In this document: one piece after another, positions 38,298 through 52,764 of the stretch
Layout of the letters: every line of letters starts with the position of its first letter
How positions within the stretch are numbered: position 1 is the first letter of the stretch
Source: Amedibacterium intestinale
Lineage (GTDB): Bacteria > Bacillota_I > Bacilli_A > Erysipelotrichales > Erysipelotrichaceae
NCBI RefSeq assembly: GCF_010537335.1
Contig: NZ_AP019711.1
Location: 2,108,001-2,172,000, forward strand
DNA: 64,000 bases
Reading direction: 5' to 3'
The notes under the pieces: model-generated
The model's input: the letters and a program-made list of their open reading frames with translations, nothing else
The model's database searches: none
Told to the model about the DNA's origin: nothing
Position numbers and translations under genes: made by a program

Positions 38298-39842
<1,545 letters not shown>

Positions 39843-40019
39843 AAGGAGAAAGAGTGTAGAGAAAGATATTTCCTGTTTGGTTTTGGAAGGCTGAGAAGCA
39901 TTCCGAATCGATCTTTGAAAACTGAATAACAGAAGACATAACAGAAGGTCTATAACGAAAAGTTGTAAGAAATTCACGAGTTGAAGTTAAACAAACAGAA
40001 AACTCAAAGCTAAGCTAAT
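39843..40019 (+). other. 16S-23S spacer without tRNA
   Basis: About 177 bases holding the GATCTTTGAAAACTGAATAA box but no cloverleaf sequence; this copy carries neither tRNA-Ile nor tRNA-Ala. Confidence 0.85.
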
Positions 40020-42917
<2,898 letters not shown>

Positions 42918-42961
42918 AATGTTGACTGTTGTTCAGTTTTGAAGGTTCGAACCTTCAGGGA

Positions 42962-43076
42962 TCTGGTGATGATGGCGAAGTGGACACACCTGTTCTCATC
43001 CCGAACACAGAAGTTAAGCACTTCAGCGGCGACAATATCCAGACGTGCTCTGGTGAAGATAGCACGTCGCCAGTTC
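42962..43076 (+). rRNA. rrf: 5S ribosomal RNA
   Basis: The core CCCGAACACAGAAGTTAAG is typical. Helix I pairs CTGGTGA (42964-42970) with TCGCCAG (43066-43072), which fixes the ends within a few bases. It is followed by terminators. Confidence 0.95.
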
Positions 43077-47307: not shown

Positions 47308-48156
47308 TTAACGATCAAATAGCTTTCTTCTTTTGGTAGATTGACGAAATAGAGTTTTTAACCCTTCTTCATCATGTTCTACTAATTTTGTTTTTAAGTT
47401 TTCTACTTCTTTCATAAAAGAATCAATTTCCTGAATTAAGATATCTTTATTTAAGAAAAAAAGTTCACTCCACATATTTTCGTTAATTTTCGCAATTCTG
47501 GTAAGATCTCGAAAACTGTCTCCTGTATAATCTACAAGATGGGTGTTGTCGTTTGTATTCATTAGCGATACGGCAATCACATGAGTTAGTTGAGATAAAA
47601 AGCCAATCATGGTGTCATGTTCTTCTAAAGTTAAGATACTAATGTGAGAAAATTCTAAGATGTGCGCAAGGTCTTTTAAACAGGAAATATCTTGCTGCGT
47701 GTTTTTGGCTGTTGGAGTTATGATAAAATTTGCACTGTGAAATATTGTATCATCTGCATTTTGAACACCACTTACTTCTTTTCCTGCCATCGGATGACTT
47801 GCACAGAAATGTAAATCATCGCGCAAAAAGTTTTGTATTTCTTCAACGATACCACTTTTTACACCACTGACATCACTAATGAATGCATGAGGTTTCATAT
47901 GCTTTTGATTGTTTTTGATCCATGTAACCATAGCTTTTGGATATAAGGCACTAATGATGATATCTGCTTGTTGAATAAGTGCTGTATCATATGTAGAACC
48001 ATGATCAATAAGATTGTTTTGTAAAGCATAGGAAATACTTTCTTCTTGTATATCAATGGCATCTACATGGTATCCTTTTTTCTTTAAACCCATTGCATAG
48101 CTTCCACCTATGAGCCCTAGACCTACTATGAGAAAACGTGTGTTCTGATCTATCAT
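47308..48156 (-). CDS. tyrA: Prephenate dehydrogenase
   Basis: Converts prephenate to 4-hydroxyphenylpyruvate with NAD(P) in tyrosine synthesis. The 282-residue protein has the Rossmann loop LIVGLGLIGGSYAMGL, the catalytic-site HPMAGKEVSGV, and the helical dimerisation domain with TGDSFRDLTRIA. There is no fused mutase or ACT domain; the mutase is on pheA. It overlaps aroA by four bases and is last of the leftward aro genes. Confidence 0.95.
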   Translation of the reverse strand: MIDQNTRFLIVGLGLIGGSYAMGLKKKGYHVDAIDIQEESISYALQNNLIDHGSTYDTALIQQADIIISALYPKAMVTWIKNNQKHMKPHAFISDVSGVKSGIVEEIQNFLRDDLHFCASHPMAGKEVSGVQNADDTIFHSANFIITPTAKNTQQDISCLKDLAHILEFSHISILTLEEHDTMIGFLSQLTHVIAVSLMNTNDNTHLVDYTGDSFRDLTRIAKINENMWSELFFLNKDILIQEIDSFMKEVENLKTKLVEHDEEGLKTLFRQSTKRRKLFDR

Positions 48157-49418
48157 ATATATTCCACCTTTCCTTGTATGGAAATAATATCTTCAAAAAA
48201 GGAAGGATAACTTTTATTGATAGCTTGTGCACCATCTATGATTATTTCTTTATTTGCACATAATCCTGCGATACATAATGCCATAACGATGCGATGATCA
48301 TTATGTCCATACAGTTCTTTTTCACAAACATATGTTTGATTTCCTTTTATATAAATATCATCTTCACCAGATCGTATATCGACATGAAACTTATGGAGTT
48401 CTTCTTCCATTGCCAAAATACGATCACTTTCTTTCATACGCAGTCTTTTCGCATGTGCAATATGTGTTTCCTTTTGTGCATACATACCAAGTACACATAA
48501 AATTGGTCCTAAATCTGGACAGTTTCCTAAATCAATATAGGAACCTTTAGGGATTCCTTTACGTACAAGATAACCTTCTTTTTTTTCTTCTACTTGTATA
48601 CCAAAGTCTTTTAAAATTGTCAGTATTTGTTTATCCCCCTGCCTAGATGATGGATTGACTCCTTTGATATATAAATCATTTTGTATAGAGGCAAGTACAG
48701 CAAAAAAGGCAAATTGAGAGAAATCTCCTTCTACGGTATAGTTACATGGTTTATATGTTTGATTGCCTGGTATATAGATAAGATTTTCTTCTTTAAAGTA
48801 AGCATGAATTCCAAAGGCTTCTAACATCTGCAATGTTAATTGTACATAAGATCGAGATTCAAAAGGGGGAAGAATTTGAATCGTAGAATCTTCTTTTAAT
48901 AAAGGAAGTGTAAATAATAGTCCACTGATAAACTGAGAACTAATATCTCCTTTTAATACAAAGTTGTCTGGTTTAAGCGAAGAGGATATACATATTTCAT
49001 CATTGTTTTGAAGGAAAGGCAAACCTTGTTTTTGAAAGATTTCTTCGTATACTTTTTGTGGGCGCTGCATAAGTCTTCCTTCTCCGCTAAAGGTGATGGG
49101 TTGATTACATAGGGAAAAAATCGGAATAAAAAAACGCAGGGTGGAACCAGATTCCTTACAATGAATATGCGTGTCCTTTATATGTTGAAAATCACAAATT
49201 CCATCAATATGAAGCGTATGTCCGTCTTGTTTGATGAGCGCTCCTAACTTTCGCATACCTTGGATTGTCGCAAGAATGTCTTGGGAGTAGTCTACATTGG
49301 ATATTACGCTATGGCCGTTTGTTAAAGAAGCACATATGATGGCACGATGGGCCATGCTTTTGCTTGGTGGTATCGTGATGCTTCCACTGCATGTAGAAGG
49401 TTTAATTTTTACTTTCAT
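48153..49418 (-). CDS. aroA: EPSP synthase (3-phosphoshikimate 1-carboxyvinyltransferase)
   Basis: Adds enolpyruvate from PEP to shikimate-3-phosphate. The 421-residue protein has IPPSKSMAHRAII at the N-terminus, KESGSTLRFFIPIF for substrate binding, and LRMKESDRILAM and YGHNDHRIVMAL near the C-terminus. The GSTLRF segment differs from the LGNAGTAMRP of class I enzymes. It overlaps aroF and tyrA by four bases at each side, so translation is tightly coupled. Confidence 0.95.
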   Translation of the reverse strand: MKVKIKPSTCSGSITIPPSKSMAHRAIICASLTNGHSVISNVDYSQDILATIQGMRKLGALIKQDGHTLHIDGICDFQHIKDTHIHCKESGSTLRFFIPIFSLCNQPITFSGEGRLMQRPQKVYEEIFQKQGLPFLQNNDEICISSSLKPDNFVLKGDISSQFISGLLFTLPLLKEDSTIQILPPFESRSYVQLTLQMLEAFGIHAYFKEENLIYIPGNQTYKPCNYTVEGDFSQFAFFAVLASIQNDLYIKGVNPSSRQGDKQILTILKDFGIQVEEKKEGYLVRKGIPKGSYIDLGNCPDLGPILCVLGMYAQKETHIAHAKRLRMKESDRILAMEEELHKFHVDIRSGEDDIYIKGNQTYVCEKELYGHNDHRIVMALCIAGLCANKEIIIDGAQAINKSYPSFFEDIISIQGKVEYI

Positions 49419-50437
49419 AAAAGATCCCTCCCTAAAACATGTGCAATCTTTCTTCCTTTTTCTACTAATGCATCAAATTTTTCTGGAAGTAAACTTTGTA
49501 CACCATCACTCATCGCATTTTCTGGATCATCATGAACCTCAATGATAAGTCCATCTGCACCTGCTGCGATGGCTGCCAAAGAGGCAGATTCTACCAGTTT
49601 CCAGTCTCCTGTGGCATGGCTTGGATCTATGATGATCGGCAGGTGTGTTTTTTCTTTGATGATAGGAATGACACTAAGATCTAATGTATTTCTTGTGTAT
49701 GGTTCAAAGGTTCGTATGCCTCGCTCACAGAAGATAACATTTGGATTTCCTTCTGACAGGATGTATTCTGCTGCCATGATCCATTCTTCAATTGTGTTGG
49801 CAAGTCCTCTTTTTAAAAGGATTGGTTTTTTTGTTTTTCCTACAGCTTTTAACAAGTCAAAGTTTTGCATATTGCGAGCACCAATTTGAATGACATCGAC
49901 ATGTTCGATGAATTCATCCAGCTTATCTGCACTCATAAGCTCACTAACGATAGGAAGTCCAGTTTTTTTACCTGCTTTTTCCATGGCGAGAATCCCTTGT
50001 GTTCCCATACCTTGAAAAGCATAAGGAGAAGTACGAGGTTTGTAGGCACCACCACGAAGCATACACGCACCTGCTTCTTTTACTTTATAGGCGATACGTT
50101 CAATCATTTCTTCACTTTCTACACTGCAAGGTCCTCCAATGACAACGATTGGTTTTTTTCCGCCAATGTGAATACCATTTACATCCACGATAGTATCCTG
50201 TGGATGAAACATACGGTTCGCAAGCTTATAAGGTGCCGCAATTCGCTGTACATGTTCTACATAAGGATTGGCTTCTATTTGATCTATATCAATACAGGAA
50301 GTATCTCCAACAATGCCAAATACATTATAGTTTTCTCCTATACTTTCATGTATTTGTAATCCTGCATCTTTAAATTTCTGCATTACATGCTCTATATCTT
50401 TTTTTGAAGCATGTTTTTTCATAGAGATAATCATCAT
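49415..50437 (-). CDS. aroF: DAHP synthase, type I-beta
   Basis: Catalyses the first shikimate step, joining PEP and erythrose-4-phosphate. The 340-residue protein has an N-terminal ferredoxin-like regulatory domain (about 1-70), known to bind aromatic end products in TM0343-type enzymes, and a barrel with GGPCSVESEEM, MLRGGAYKPRTSPYAFQG, LLKRGLANTIEEW and IDPSHATGDW. The regulatory domain implies feedback control in addition to the transcriptional attenuator upstream of aroB. It is five bases from aroC. Confidence 0.95.
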   Translation of the reverse strand: MMIISMKKHASKKDIEHVMQKFKDAGLQIHESIGENYNVFGIVGDTSCIDIDQIEANPYVEHVQRIAAPYKLANRMFHPQDTIVDVNGIHIGGKKPIVVIGGPCSVESEEMIERIAYKVKEAGACMLRGGAYKPRTSPYAFQGMGTQGILAMEKAGKKTGLPIVSELMSADKLDEFIEHVDVIQIGARNMQNFDLLKAVGKTKKPILLKRGLANTIEEWIMAAEYILSEGNPNVIFCERGIRTFEPYTRNTLDLSVIPIIKEKTHLPIIIDPSHATGDWKLVESASLAAIAAGADGLIIEVHDDPENAMSDGVQSLLPEKFDALVEKGRKIAHVLGRDLL

Positions 50438-50442
50438 AATTC

Positions 50443-51558
50443 CTACTTTCTTTTTCTGTTGTGCAACATGGAAAGGGTTGATTCTCTTTCCATGATAAGA
50501 TCTAATAACCCTATGGCAACCATACTGTCAATTACAACACGCGCACGATGTATGATAGCTGGATCATGTCTTCCCTGAATCTGCAGTTTTACAGGTTCAT
50601 GTGTTTCTTTATCAATTGTATCCTGCTGTTTATAAATAGATGGAGTAGGTTTGATAACACTGCGGATACAAATCGGCATTCCATTGGAAATTCCTCCATT
50701 GATTCCTCCATTATGGTTGGTAGCGGTTTTTACCTTTCCATCAAACAATATCGCATCATTTGCCTCACTTCCATAAAGCTTCGCAAAATCAAAACCTTCT
50801 CCAAATTCTACTCCTTTTACTGCCGGCACACTAAACAGTAGATGAGATATGTGACTTTCTATAGAATCAAAGAAAGGCTCTCCGATTCCTTCTGGCATAT
50901 GCAAGACACATGTTTCAATGATTCCTCCAACACTATCCCCCTGCATGGCAGCTTCTTCTATGACTTTGCGCATTTCTTCTGCTTTCTTTTGATTTAATAG
51001 CGCAAAATCACACTGGTTCATTTGTGATATCTGCTCTTCTAATATATCTTCTTTTGTGGAAAATTTATCATCTTTGATATGATGACACTGTAAGATATGA
51101 CTTCCAATTAGAATTCCTTTTTCTTTTAAAACCTGCATGGCAATCGCACCTGCAGCCACAAGAACAGCTGTTAATCTTCCACTAAAATGACCGCCGCCTC
51201 GATAATCCTGGTATCCCAGATATTTGATATCTGCTGTATAATCTGCATGAGAAGGACGAAGACGGTTTTTTGTCTTTTCGTAGTCATGACTTCTTGTGTT
51301 TGTATTTTCAATAAGAATCGTTAGGGGTGTACCTGTTGTATATCCTTCAAAATAACCACTGACGATATGAATTTCATCTGCTTCTTTTCGCTGTGTGCTG
51401 ATGTTTCCTTTTGCTTTTCTTTTTTCCATCTGCTGTTTTATAAAATCCAAATCTAAGGCAATTCCTGGGGCTAAGCCATCCATGACAGCACCAATACAAT
51501 CGCCATGACTTTCCCCAAATATTGTCACACTTAATTGATTTCCAAATGTATTTTTCAT
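50443..51558 (-). CDS. aroC: Chorismate synthase
   Basis: Makes chorismate from EPSP using reduced flavin. The 371-residue protein begins MKNTFGNQLSVTIFGESHG and has the signatures LRPSHADYTADIKY, YRGGGHFSGRLTA and GRHDPAIIHRARVV. I chose ATG 51558, preceded by GTGAGG, since the frame start at 51570 is a GTG inside that ribosome site. It is 15 bases from aroB. Confidence 0.97.
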   Translation of the reverse strand: MKNTFGNQLSVTIFGESHGDCIGAVMDGLAPGIALDLDFIKQQMEKRKAKGNISTQRKEADEIHIVSGYFEGYTTGTPLTILIENTNTRSHDYEKTKNRLRPSHADYTADIKYLGYQDYRGGGHFSGRLTAVLVAAGAIAMQVLKEKGILIGSHILQCHHIKDDKFSTKEDILEEQISQMNQCDFALLNQKKAEEMRKVIEEAAMQGDSVGGIIETCVLHMPEGIGEPFFDSIESHISHLLFSVPAVKGVEFGEGFDFAKLYGSEANDAILFDGKVKTATNHNGGINGGISNGMPICIRSVIKPTPSIYKQQDTIDKETHEPVKLQIQGRHDPAIIHRARVVIDSMVAIGLLDLIMERESTLSMLHNRKRK

Positions 51559-51573
51559 AAACGACCTCACTTA

Positions 51574-52572
51574 TTATAAATATTTCTTAATATCTTCAAG
51601 ATGCATATCCTCTAAGACTGCTTTTCCACATTCTTTGACTTTAACTATCGTAATTGTATCTCCATTTGCTTTTTTATCTTTGCATAAAAGCTGATATACT
51701 TTTTCTTTGTCAAAAGAGGGTAAAGCAGGCATATGCAGTTTTTTATAAACATTGAATACTCTTTCTTTTAATTTTTCATCTTCTATAAAATATAACATTC
51801 CCATGGATACACATTCTCCATGCAGGTAGCTATCTAAATGATAATAACTTTCAATCGCATGTCCAATCGTATGTCCAAAGTTTAAAATTTTACGTAACCC
51901 TAATTCTTTTTCATCTTGTTCTACAACTTTTTTCTTTACAAGCAGGGAACGATAAAGAATATCTTCCAAATGTTCTTCGATAGATTCACTTTCAAATAGG
52001 GCAAATAGCTCTTTATCCTGTATAAGACCTGCTTTCAAGGCTTCTACAAGACCATTTCGAAAATGACGGATAGGAAGGGTTTTTAAGGTATCTGGATCAA
52101 TAAAGACGGCTTTAGGCTGATAAAATGCCCCAATGATATTTTTTACTTCCTGTAGATTGATTGCGACTTTTCCACCAATGCTGCTGTCAATTTGTGACAG
52201 GGTCGTTGTAGGAATCTGAATAACATCAATACCACGCATATAACTTGCGGCTACATAACCGCTGACATCACCTACTACACCTCCGCCTAAGGCAACAATA
52301 CAGTCTTTTCTAGAAAATCCATGCGATAATAAATCCTCACACAACTCTTGAAAAACAGACAGGCTTTTGGATTCTTCTCCTTGTTTTATGATATGGATAT
52401 AGCCTTTCTGACATTGTTCCTGTACCGTCTTGGCATAAGATAAAGGAACACCATCATCTGTAATGATCATTACTTTACGTTTTAAATCTATATAATCACT
52501 AACTCGATACAGACATCCTCTTTCCAAAATAATATCATAACCGTTTTCTTTTAAATCTACATGAAGTTTCAT
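51574..52572 (-). CDS. aroB: 3-dehydroquinate synthase
   Basis: Cyclises DAHP to 3-dehydroquinate using NAD and a divalent metal. The 332-residue protein has ALGGGVVGDVSGYVAASYMRG, the metal and active-site segments IPTTTLSQIDSSIGGKVAIN and LNFGHTIGHAIE. I chose ATG 52572, six bases after AGGAGGG; an ATG at 52578 directly abuts that site. It is the first structural gene of the leftward aro operon and follows the leader attenuator. Confidence 0.95.
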   Translation of the reverse strand: MKLHVDLKENGYDIILERGCLYRVSDYIDLKRKVMIITDDGVPLSYAKTVQEQCQKGYIHIIKQGEESKSLSVFQELCEDLLSHGFSRKDCIVALGGGVVGDVSGYVAASYMRGIDVIQIPTTTLSQIDSSIGGKVAINLQEVKNIIGAFYQPKAVFIDPDTLKTLPIRHFRNGLVEALKAGLIQDKELFALFESESIEEHLEDILYRSLLVKKKVVEQDEKELGLRKILNFGHTIGHAIESYYHLDSYLHGECVSMGMLYFIEDEKLKERVFNVYKKLHMPALPSFDKEKVYQLLCKDKKANGDTITIVKVKECGKAVLEDMHLEDIKKYL

Positions 52573-52591: not shown

Positions 52592-52619
52592 AAAAAACAT
52601 CGCTATAAGTGAGCGATGT
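52592..52619 (-). terminator. Attenuator terminator in the aroB leader
   Basis: On the minus strand ACATCGCT pairs perfectly with AGCGATGT around CACTTAT, followed by TTTTTT. It ends about 20 bases before the aroB start codon, inside the leader transcript, so it must be bypassed for operon expression. Confidence 0.85.
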
Positions 52620-52626
52620 AATTGTA

Positions 52627-52678
52627 TTCGTTATAAAGAAGTGAAAAAGAACCATGAAATCAATGGCTTTATAACGAA
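52627..52678 (-). promoter_or_regulatory. Long inverted repeat of the aro attenuator
   Basis: TTCGTTATAAAG, which covers the last codons and stop of the leader peptide (52667-52678), is perfectly complementary over 12 bases to CTTTATAACGAA at 52627-52638. A ribosome finishing the leader would cover the first arm; one stalled on the Phe-Tyr-Tyr codons would leave it free. How this fold competes with the downstream terminator is not obvious: it ends eight bases short of the terminator stem, although a weaker TAATTTG/CAATTA extension reaches closer. Confidence 0.65.
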
Positions 52679-52713
52679 AAATTCAAATTATAATAAAATC
52701 GTTTAACAGACAT
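52669..52713 (-). CDS. Aromatic amino acid leader peptide of the aro operon
   Basis: A 14-codon open frame encoding MSVKRFYYNLNFSL and ending in TAA. It holds two Phe and two Tyr, three of them consecutive (Phe6-Tyr7-Tyr8). It starts about 15 bases after the predicted transcription start and is preceded by GTGAGAGTG as a modest ribosome site. Its stop codon is within the 12-bp inverted repeat, and an intrinsic terminator follows about 50 bases later, before aroB. This is the classic order for attenuation by stalled translation. It is too short for standard gene finding. The role is inferred. Confidence 0.7.
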   Translation of the reverse strand: MSVKRFYYNLNFSL

Positions 52714-52735
52714 GGTATCACTCTCACTTTTCTAT

Positions 52736-52764
52736 ATCATAATATACTTTTCTTCTAAATACAA
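52736..52764 (-). promoter_or_regulatory. Promoter of the leftward aro operon
   Basis: On the minus strand, TTGTAT (52764-52759), a 17-base spacer and TATGAT (52741-52736). Transcription would begin near 52729, just before the leader peptide. Confidence 0.65.

Follow-up and report, generated by a model that had tools for sequence, protein, structure and literature searches.

The aroB operon and its leader

We analyzed a stretch of 64,000 nucleotides from Amedibacterium intestinale, referred to here as the window. Its minus strand carries the genes for 3-dehydroquinate synthase (aroB, 51574-52572, Pfam PF01761/PF24621), chorismate synthase (aroC, 50443-51570, PF01264), DAHP synthase (aroF, 49415-50437, PF00793 and PF18152), EPSP synthase (aroA, 48153-49418, PF00275) and prephenate dehydrogenase (tyrA, 47308-48156, PF02153 and PF20463), and these Pfam assignments agree with the gene association given in a preliminary description of the locus. 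A complete rRNA operon (16S, 23S and 5S) is located at 38300-43075 of the window.

Between 52764 and 52592 on the same strand, a promoter, a leader ORF, an inverted repeat, a terminator and the ribosome site of aroB follow one another in the order claimed previously. The probable promoter (52737-52764) consists of a -10 box TATGAT (52742-52737), which is a good match, and a weak -35 box TTGTAT (52764-52759), which had been proposed along with it but has only three of six consensus positions and is absent from the promoter-scan list; a similar sequence, TATGATAT, is present in the leaders L004 and L134. The Shine-Dalgarno region of the leader, GAGAGTGAT (52717-52725), was recognized from the sequence and from the relatives, in which it reads GGAGTGAT and is retained in aroB and aroE leaders. 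It is followed by the leader ORF MSVKRFYYNLNFSL with its TAA (52669-52713; ATG at 52713-52711, TAA at 52671-52669), exactly where it had been placed, and the same kind of leader is conserved in relatives. The aromatic run of this leader is short (FYY...F): the presumed regulatory codons Phe6-Tyr7-Tyr8 (52690-52698) have their first bases 14-20 nt 5' of the stem P1, as in relatives, and the Phe12 codon (52678-52680) lies 2 nt 5' of P1.

The 5' arm of P1, TTCGTTATAAAG (52667-52678), holds the leader stop codon and pairs exactly with the 3' arm CTTTATAACGAA (52627-52638). The 12-bp inverted repeat that was said to use the leader stop region is indeed perfect; when these 173 bases were dinucleotide-shuffled 150 times, a perfect repeat of this length appeared once. 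Comparison with relatives revealed a P2 hairpin, CCAT...ATGG (52652-52666), and 3' of it a U-rich stretch, TTCTTTTTCACTT (52639-52651), which corresponds to GG-Y-N-UUUU in relatives. The terminator scan found the intrinsic terminator ACATCGCT-cacttat-AGCGATGT (52619-52597) with its T run (together 52592-52619), and in the 801-base region holding the leader there were 3 terminator-like sites versus 0.3 in shuffles. The motif AGGAGGG precedes aroB, whose start ATG at 52572 (ATGAAA, like relatives) is situated 6 bases after the start of the longest ORF; terminator and ribosome site were also present in the expected order. The 12-bp stem of P1 and the terminator do not overlap, and therefore they are, alone, not alternative structures; the idea that the repeat itself competes with the terminator is unsupported.

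Conservation of the leader peptide in the family

The aroB loci were collected from the family of the window, and 102 of them had enough upstream sequence for analysis; the AroB contig search returned mostly distant loci. As a criterion, we required a short frame whose last eight codons include a run of three or more Phe/Tyr codons. Such a frame was found upstream of aroB in 59 of the 102 loci, compared with 8.6 ± 2.7 in shuffled sequences and 5 on the reverse strand. The same test with other amino-acid pairs gave values mostly at or below those of the shuffles, with the exception of Ile/Met (15 versus 4.6). In the curated leaders, 243 of the 357 last codons encoded Phe or Tyr and none encoded Trp. 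Phe and Tyr codons swap freely in these leaders and the aromatic codons are kept, as can be seen in MHNKGYYYYR, MLFNRYYYS, MKTLTNTFYFYFR and MKTVKYYYYYYFR. One of the related loci, L033, belongs to Faecalicoccus.

In subtype A, the group of leaders that includes the window, the aromatic codons mostly begin 7-20 nt 5' of P1 although the position of the stop shifts (the automatically assigned P1 start being unreliable for L154 and approximate in the second group, subtype B). In both leaders of the window's genome, the stop has moved into P1 and the codon-to-P1 spacing is unchanged. A stalled ribosome extends 12-13 nt from its A-site codon to its leading edge, which with this spacing would fall at the base of P1. 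The preliminary description had proposed to look for conservation in relatives, and the leader frame, the aromatic codons and the stem were all found to be kept there. Its core reading, a leader-peptide attenuator with Phe/Tyr codons, is strongly supported by these three elements.

The genus is represented by one other genome (G001, loci L002 and L291), and its aroB lacks the leader; this genome gave only a doubtful match to the covariance model described below. This aroB adjoins divergently transcribed chorismate mutase-like and aminotransferase-like genes.

RNA structure and alternative pairings

The architecture is the following: P1, which starts close to the leader stop or at it, surrounds the small P2 hairpin and the U-rich stretch that comes after P2, and the terminator is last. 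The P1 sequences are wholly different between clades, yet the pairing is present in nearly every clade. Compared with shuffled partners, P1 pairing was highly significant both in 37 representatives (Fisher p 2e-21) and in 47 subtype A leaders (p 9e-36), although these p-values are optimistic, as they count related genomes as independent. In the subtype A alignment (25 members), 89% of the cells for P1, P2 and the terminator are paired and 8 pairs have changed on both sides, with one of 500 shuffles as good. RNAalifold found the terminator alone in subtype A because the P1 sequences differ between clades, and the shuffle test was therefore used for P1. Covariation of P1 and the terminator was also seen among the 18 aligned members of subtype B, with 24 double-changed cells (0 of 500 shuffles).

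Furthermore, the 3' arm of P1 in subtype B, GGCATTATC, is also complementary to the loop and 3' arm of the terminator, GATAATGCC. This alternative pairing was 88% paired and included 4 pairs with changes in both partners, a result equalled in 0 of 500 shuffles; in L184, for example, GGTGTTATC would pair with GATAACACC. Judging from the covariation, the predicted pairings of subtype B form a classical set of exclusive structures, in which a covarying antiterminator is visible. Constrained folding with a ribosome on the aromatic codons lowered the terminator probability in the subtype B leaders L184, L194, L208, L210 and L211, and a stalled ribosome likewise lowered terminator formation in L178 and L190; with the ribosome at the stop, the terminator of these leaders stayed at about 0.97. 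Many other members of subtype B changed little. L178 and L190, both from genus g3, are minimal three-segment, trp-like attenuators before aroB without P2, with the leaders YYYFYFF and YYFTVSYYYSF.

For the leader of the window, constrained folding gave a terminator probability of 0.97 in every ribosome state, with no effect of ribosome position. In subtype A including the window, we detected no complementarity between leader and terminator above shuffles and no antiterminator. Several candidates were considered and rejected. The pairing of AAGTGAG with CTCACTT, offered in the preliminary description as an antiterminator, is at chance level, since the average shuffle already has 1.5 complementary helices of at least 7 bp, and it was not apparent among the relatives' leaders that we read. 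Pairing of the 3' arm of P1 with the 3' arm of the terminator in subtype A (e.g., GGGGCAU/AUGCUUU in L186) was not above shuffles. The 5' arm of P1 in the window could pair with the terminator, CTTATAGCGA, at -11.1 kcal/mol (p 0.055), with no consistent counterpart in relatives. As a separate observation, in the minimum-energy fold the ribosome site and start codon of the window's leader (52730-52712) pair with the 3' side of P2 and the U-rich stretch (52657-52640). Pairing of this kind was also seen by eye in a few subtype A leaders, and in the folding model it might limit repeated translation of the leader.

Conservation reaches well beyond the codons, to P2 and the U-run that follows it. 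Together with the result that subtype A gave no antiterminator, this would fit a riboswitch or the target of an RNA-binding repressor, in which the P1-P2-UUUU core is the receptor for a small molecule or protein and the short ORF is secondary. We regard such a receptor RNA as improbable: the aromatic codons are constant over three RNA architectures, including the three-segment leaders L178 and L190 that have no P2, their spacing to P1 is fixed, and there is no Rfam riboswitch match.

Other genes preceded by the leader

Two covariance models, R1 for subtype B and R2 for subtype A, were trained on aroB leaders only and used to search 273 family genomes. Among the R2 matches listed (E ≤ 0.05), 12 places were not upstream of aroB: eight of them precede aroE and four a DAHP synthase gene, and all 12 have Phe/Tyr leaders. 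R1 also matched a DAHP synthase leader (L244). In addition, three genera in which no convincing aroB was found (g62, g26 and g68; only E 1.9e-4 in G237) gave R1 matches in leaders that precede ABC_sub_bind lipoproteins. These transporters were identified by Pfam for L248 and L249 and by likeness for L250-L253; their leaders contain SFFFFFR (L248, L250), WSYYYYFS (L249, L251), QFYFYFS (L252) and YYYFYYS (L253). The all-Phe SFFFFFR and the Tyr-rich WSYYYYFS before paralogous transporters make a testable prediction of substrate specificity. An unlike leader, MPKE[IV]KWQF[CY]FLGL, which holds Trp, Phe and Tyr and is followed by hairpins and a terminator, precedes an SBP_bac_3 transporter gene in L245 and L246 and is a weak match to R1 (E ~2e-5).

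The combined model R3, run over the order, gave 54 matches at E ≤ 0.02, all inside the family of the window. One (G184) is inside a gene, three second matches (in G142, G143 and G144) were placed through their likeness to G138 and G141, and the remaining ones are before aroB, aroE or aroF. When 296 genomes sampled evenly across the class were searched, only two matches fell outside the family, both inside genes. A simple pattern, ACCAT..ATGGTTCTTTT, was unspecific and was discarded: it occurred in 22 of 273 genomes, with the aroB leader of G015 alone recognizable.

The genome of the window itself has a second copy of the leader, MQNKAFLTTRFYYVFRKL (RFYYVFRKL), before a shikimate dehydrogenase-kinase fusion gene (aroE-aroK); RFYY is common to the two leaders. 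The model gave this copy an E value of 0.44, and we accepted it from leader and gene rather than from the score alone. The gene (L288:544-1806; C1, ~750.5 kb) encodes shikimate dehydrogenase fused to shikimate kinase as one protein of 421 aa.

Stalling leaders of similar size are also known before antibiotic-response genes, and by this precedent translation of the leader could matter but sense general translation speed or an antibiotic instead of Phe/Tyr charging. The genes found here make this very improbable, as the leaders precede aromatic biosynthesis and transport genes and retain aromatic codons while Phe and Tyr interchange freely. A reading in which the short ORF arose by chance in AT-rich DNA, as such frames do in some 8 of the 102 shuffled regions, and the element is a constitutive terminator or an unrelated structure, is hardly credible and already largely refuted by the family-wide excess, the covariation and the second copy before aroE in the same genome.

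Comparison with known regulatory leaders

Rfam gave nothing at the gathering threshold for the leader of the window or 18 relatives; the Phe_leader model RF01859 scored 16 bits with the window's leader (E 6.7; gathering 55 bits). In the enteric phe, trp and his attenuators, a ribosome stalled on regulatory codons decides between terminator and antiterminator. RF01859 and its relatives share with the family described here end-product codons in a translated leader, hairpins around the stop and a terminator before the operon. However, there is no homology in sequence or structure: in our family, P2 and the U-run are nested within P1, the Phe/Tyr runs are mixed, and the presumed target is the common shikimate pathway, with copies of the leader distributed over several operons of a regulon. 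TRAP-regulated leaders have about 11 spaced (G/U)AG triplets and go along with a TRAP gene, whereas the leader of the window is without Trp codons and its operon is not trp.

T-boxes are the textbook tRNA sensors in this lineage. In the sister family f2, three genomes carry a T-box (RF00230, 124-134 bits) ahead of aroF-aroB (L024:153-403, L030:174-426 and L029:3590-3838). This element is likewise a sensor of tRNA charging at the equivalent operon, but it is absent at the aroB of the window: RF00230 had no match in the window, and of its 16 matches in the same genome none is listed near aroB or aroE. The attenuator thus occupies the position held by the T-box in the sister family.

The preliminary description regarded translation-coupled attenuation of an aro operon as unusual in Firmicutes, but it is less so than thought, given two earlier predictions. 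His-leader attenuators were predicted for the his operons of six Erysipelotrichales (PMC9413887); they are probably from the same order and have tandem regulatory codons and predicted attenuator, terminator and antiterminator hairpins, but with His codons and a his operon, and no his operon was among the covariance-model matches that we read. The uORFC-13-1 motif, a candidate uORF before aroF with 24 representatives in Acholeplasma and unassigned environmental sequences, has at least one Phe codon, a possible -10/-35 and RBS, and a terminator, with no Tyr run mentioned (PMC8632094). Compared by description only, it resembles our family in having a uORF with Phe codon and a terminator before a gene of the aromatic pathway, and differs in taxon (Acholeplasma) and in gene (aroF instead of the aroB operon of the window). 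In our literature search, which left most subscription papers outside, no paper described the present attenuator family.

Proposed mechanism and significance

Our analysis argues that the leader of aroB-aroC-aroF-aroA-tyrA is very probably a ribosome-mediated transcription attenuator that senses charged tRNA-Phe and tRNA-Tyr through a translated leader peptide. Judged from the aligned sequences, the Phe/Tyr attenuator family is real and conserved, with a previously unlisted RNA architecture, and belongs to a known kind. With ample Phe and Tyr, the ribosome would reach the stop codon inside P1 and then depart; P1/P2 and the terminator would fold, and transcription would stop near 52592. Under a shortage of Phe or Tyr, the ribosome would stall at the aromatic codons and its leading edge would lie at the base of P1, so that P1 would not be properly formed and read-through would increase. 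In subtype B, stalling would free the covarying pairing of the 3' arm of P1 with the terminator. We infer ribosome stalling, including that at codons 6-8, and the direction of the response; subtype A, and the window with it, may share the switching logic of subtype B.

A broader proposal is that a family-specific RNA class replaced the T-box on aromatic genes and serves as one Phe/Tyr sensor of a dispersed regulon (aroB, aroF and aroE-aroK operons, and transporters in genera without aroB), with subtype A, including the window, switching without a conventional antiterminator, e.g., by a P2-U4 pause site with ribosome-dependent escape. We consider this proposal in its entirety speculative and rather unlikely.

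The results add a widespread, unlisted family of leader-peptide attenuators to a lineage whose textbook tRNA sensors are T-boxes. They would place a whole aromatic regulon under one attenuator, covering synthesis in some genera and uptake where no aroB was found, and T-box and peptide attenuator may be compared as two tRNA-sensing solutions on the same genes.
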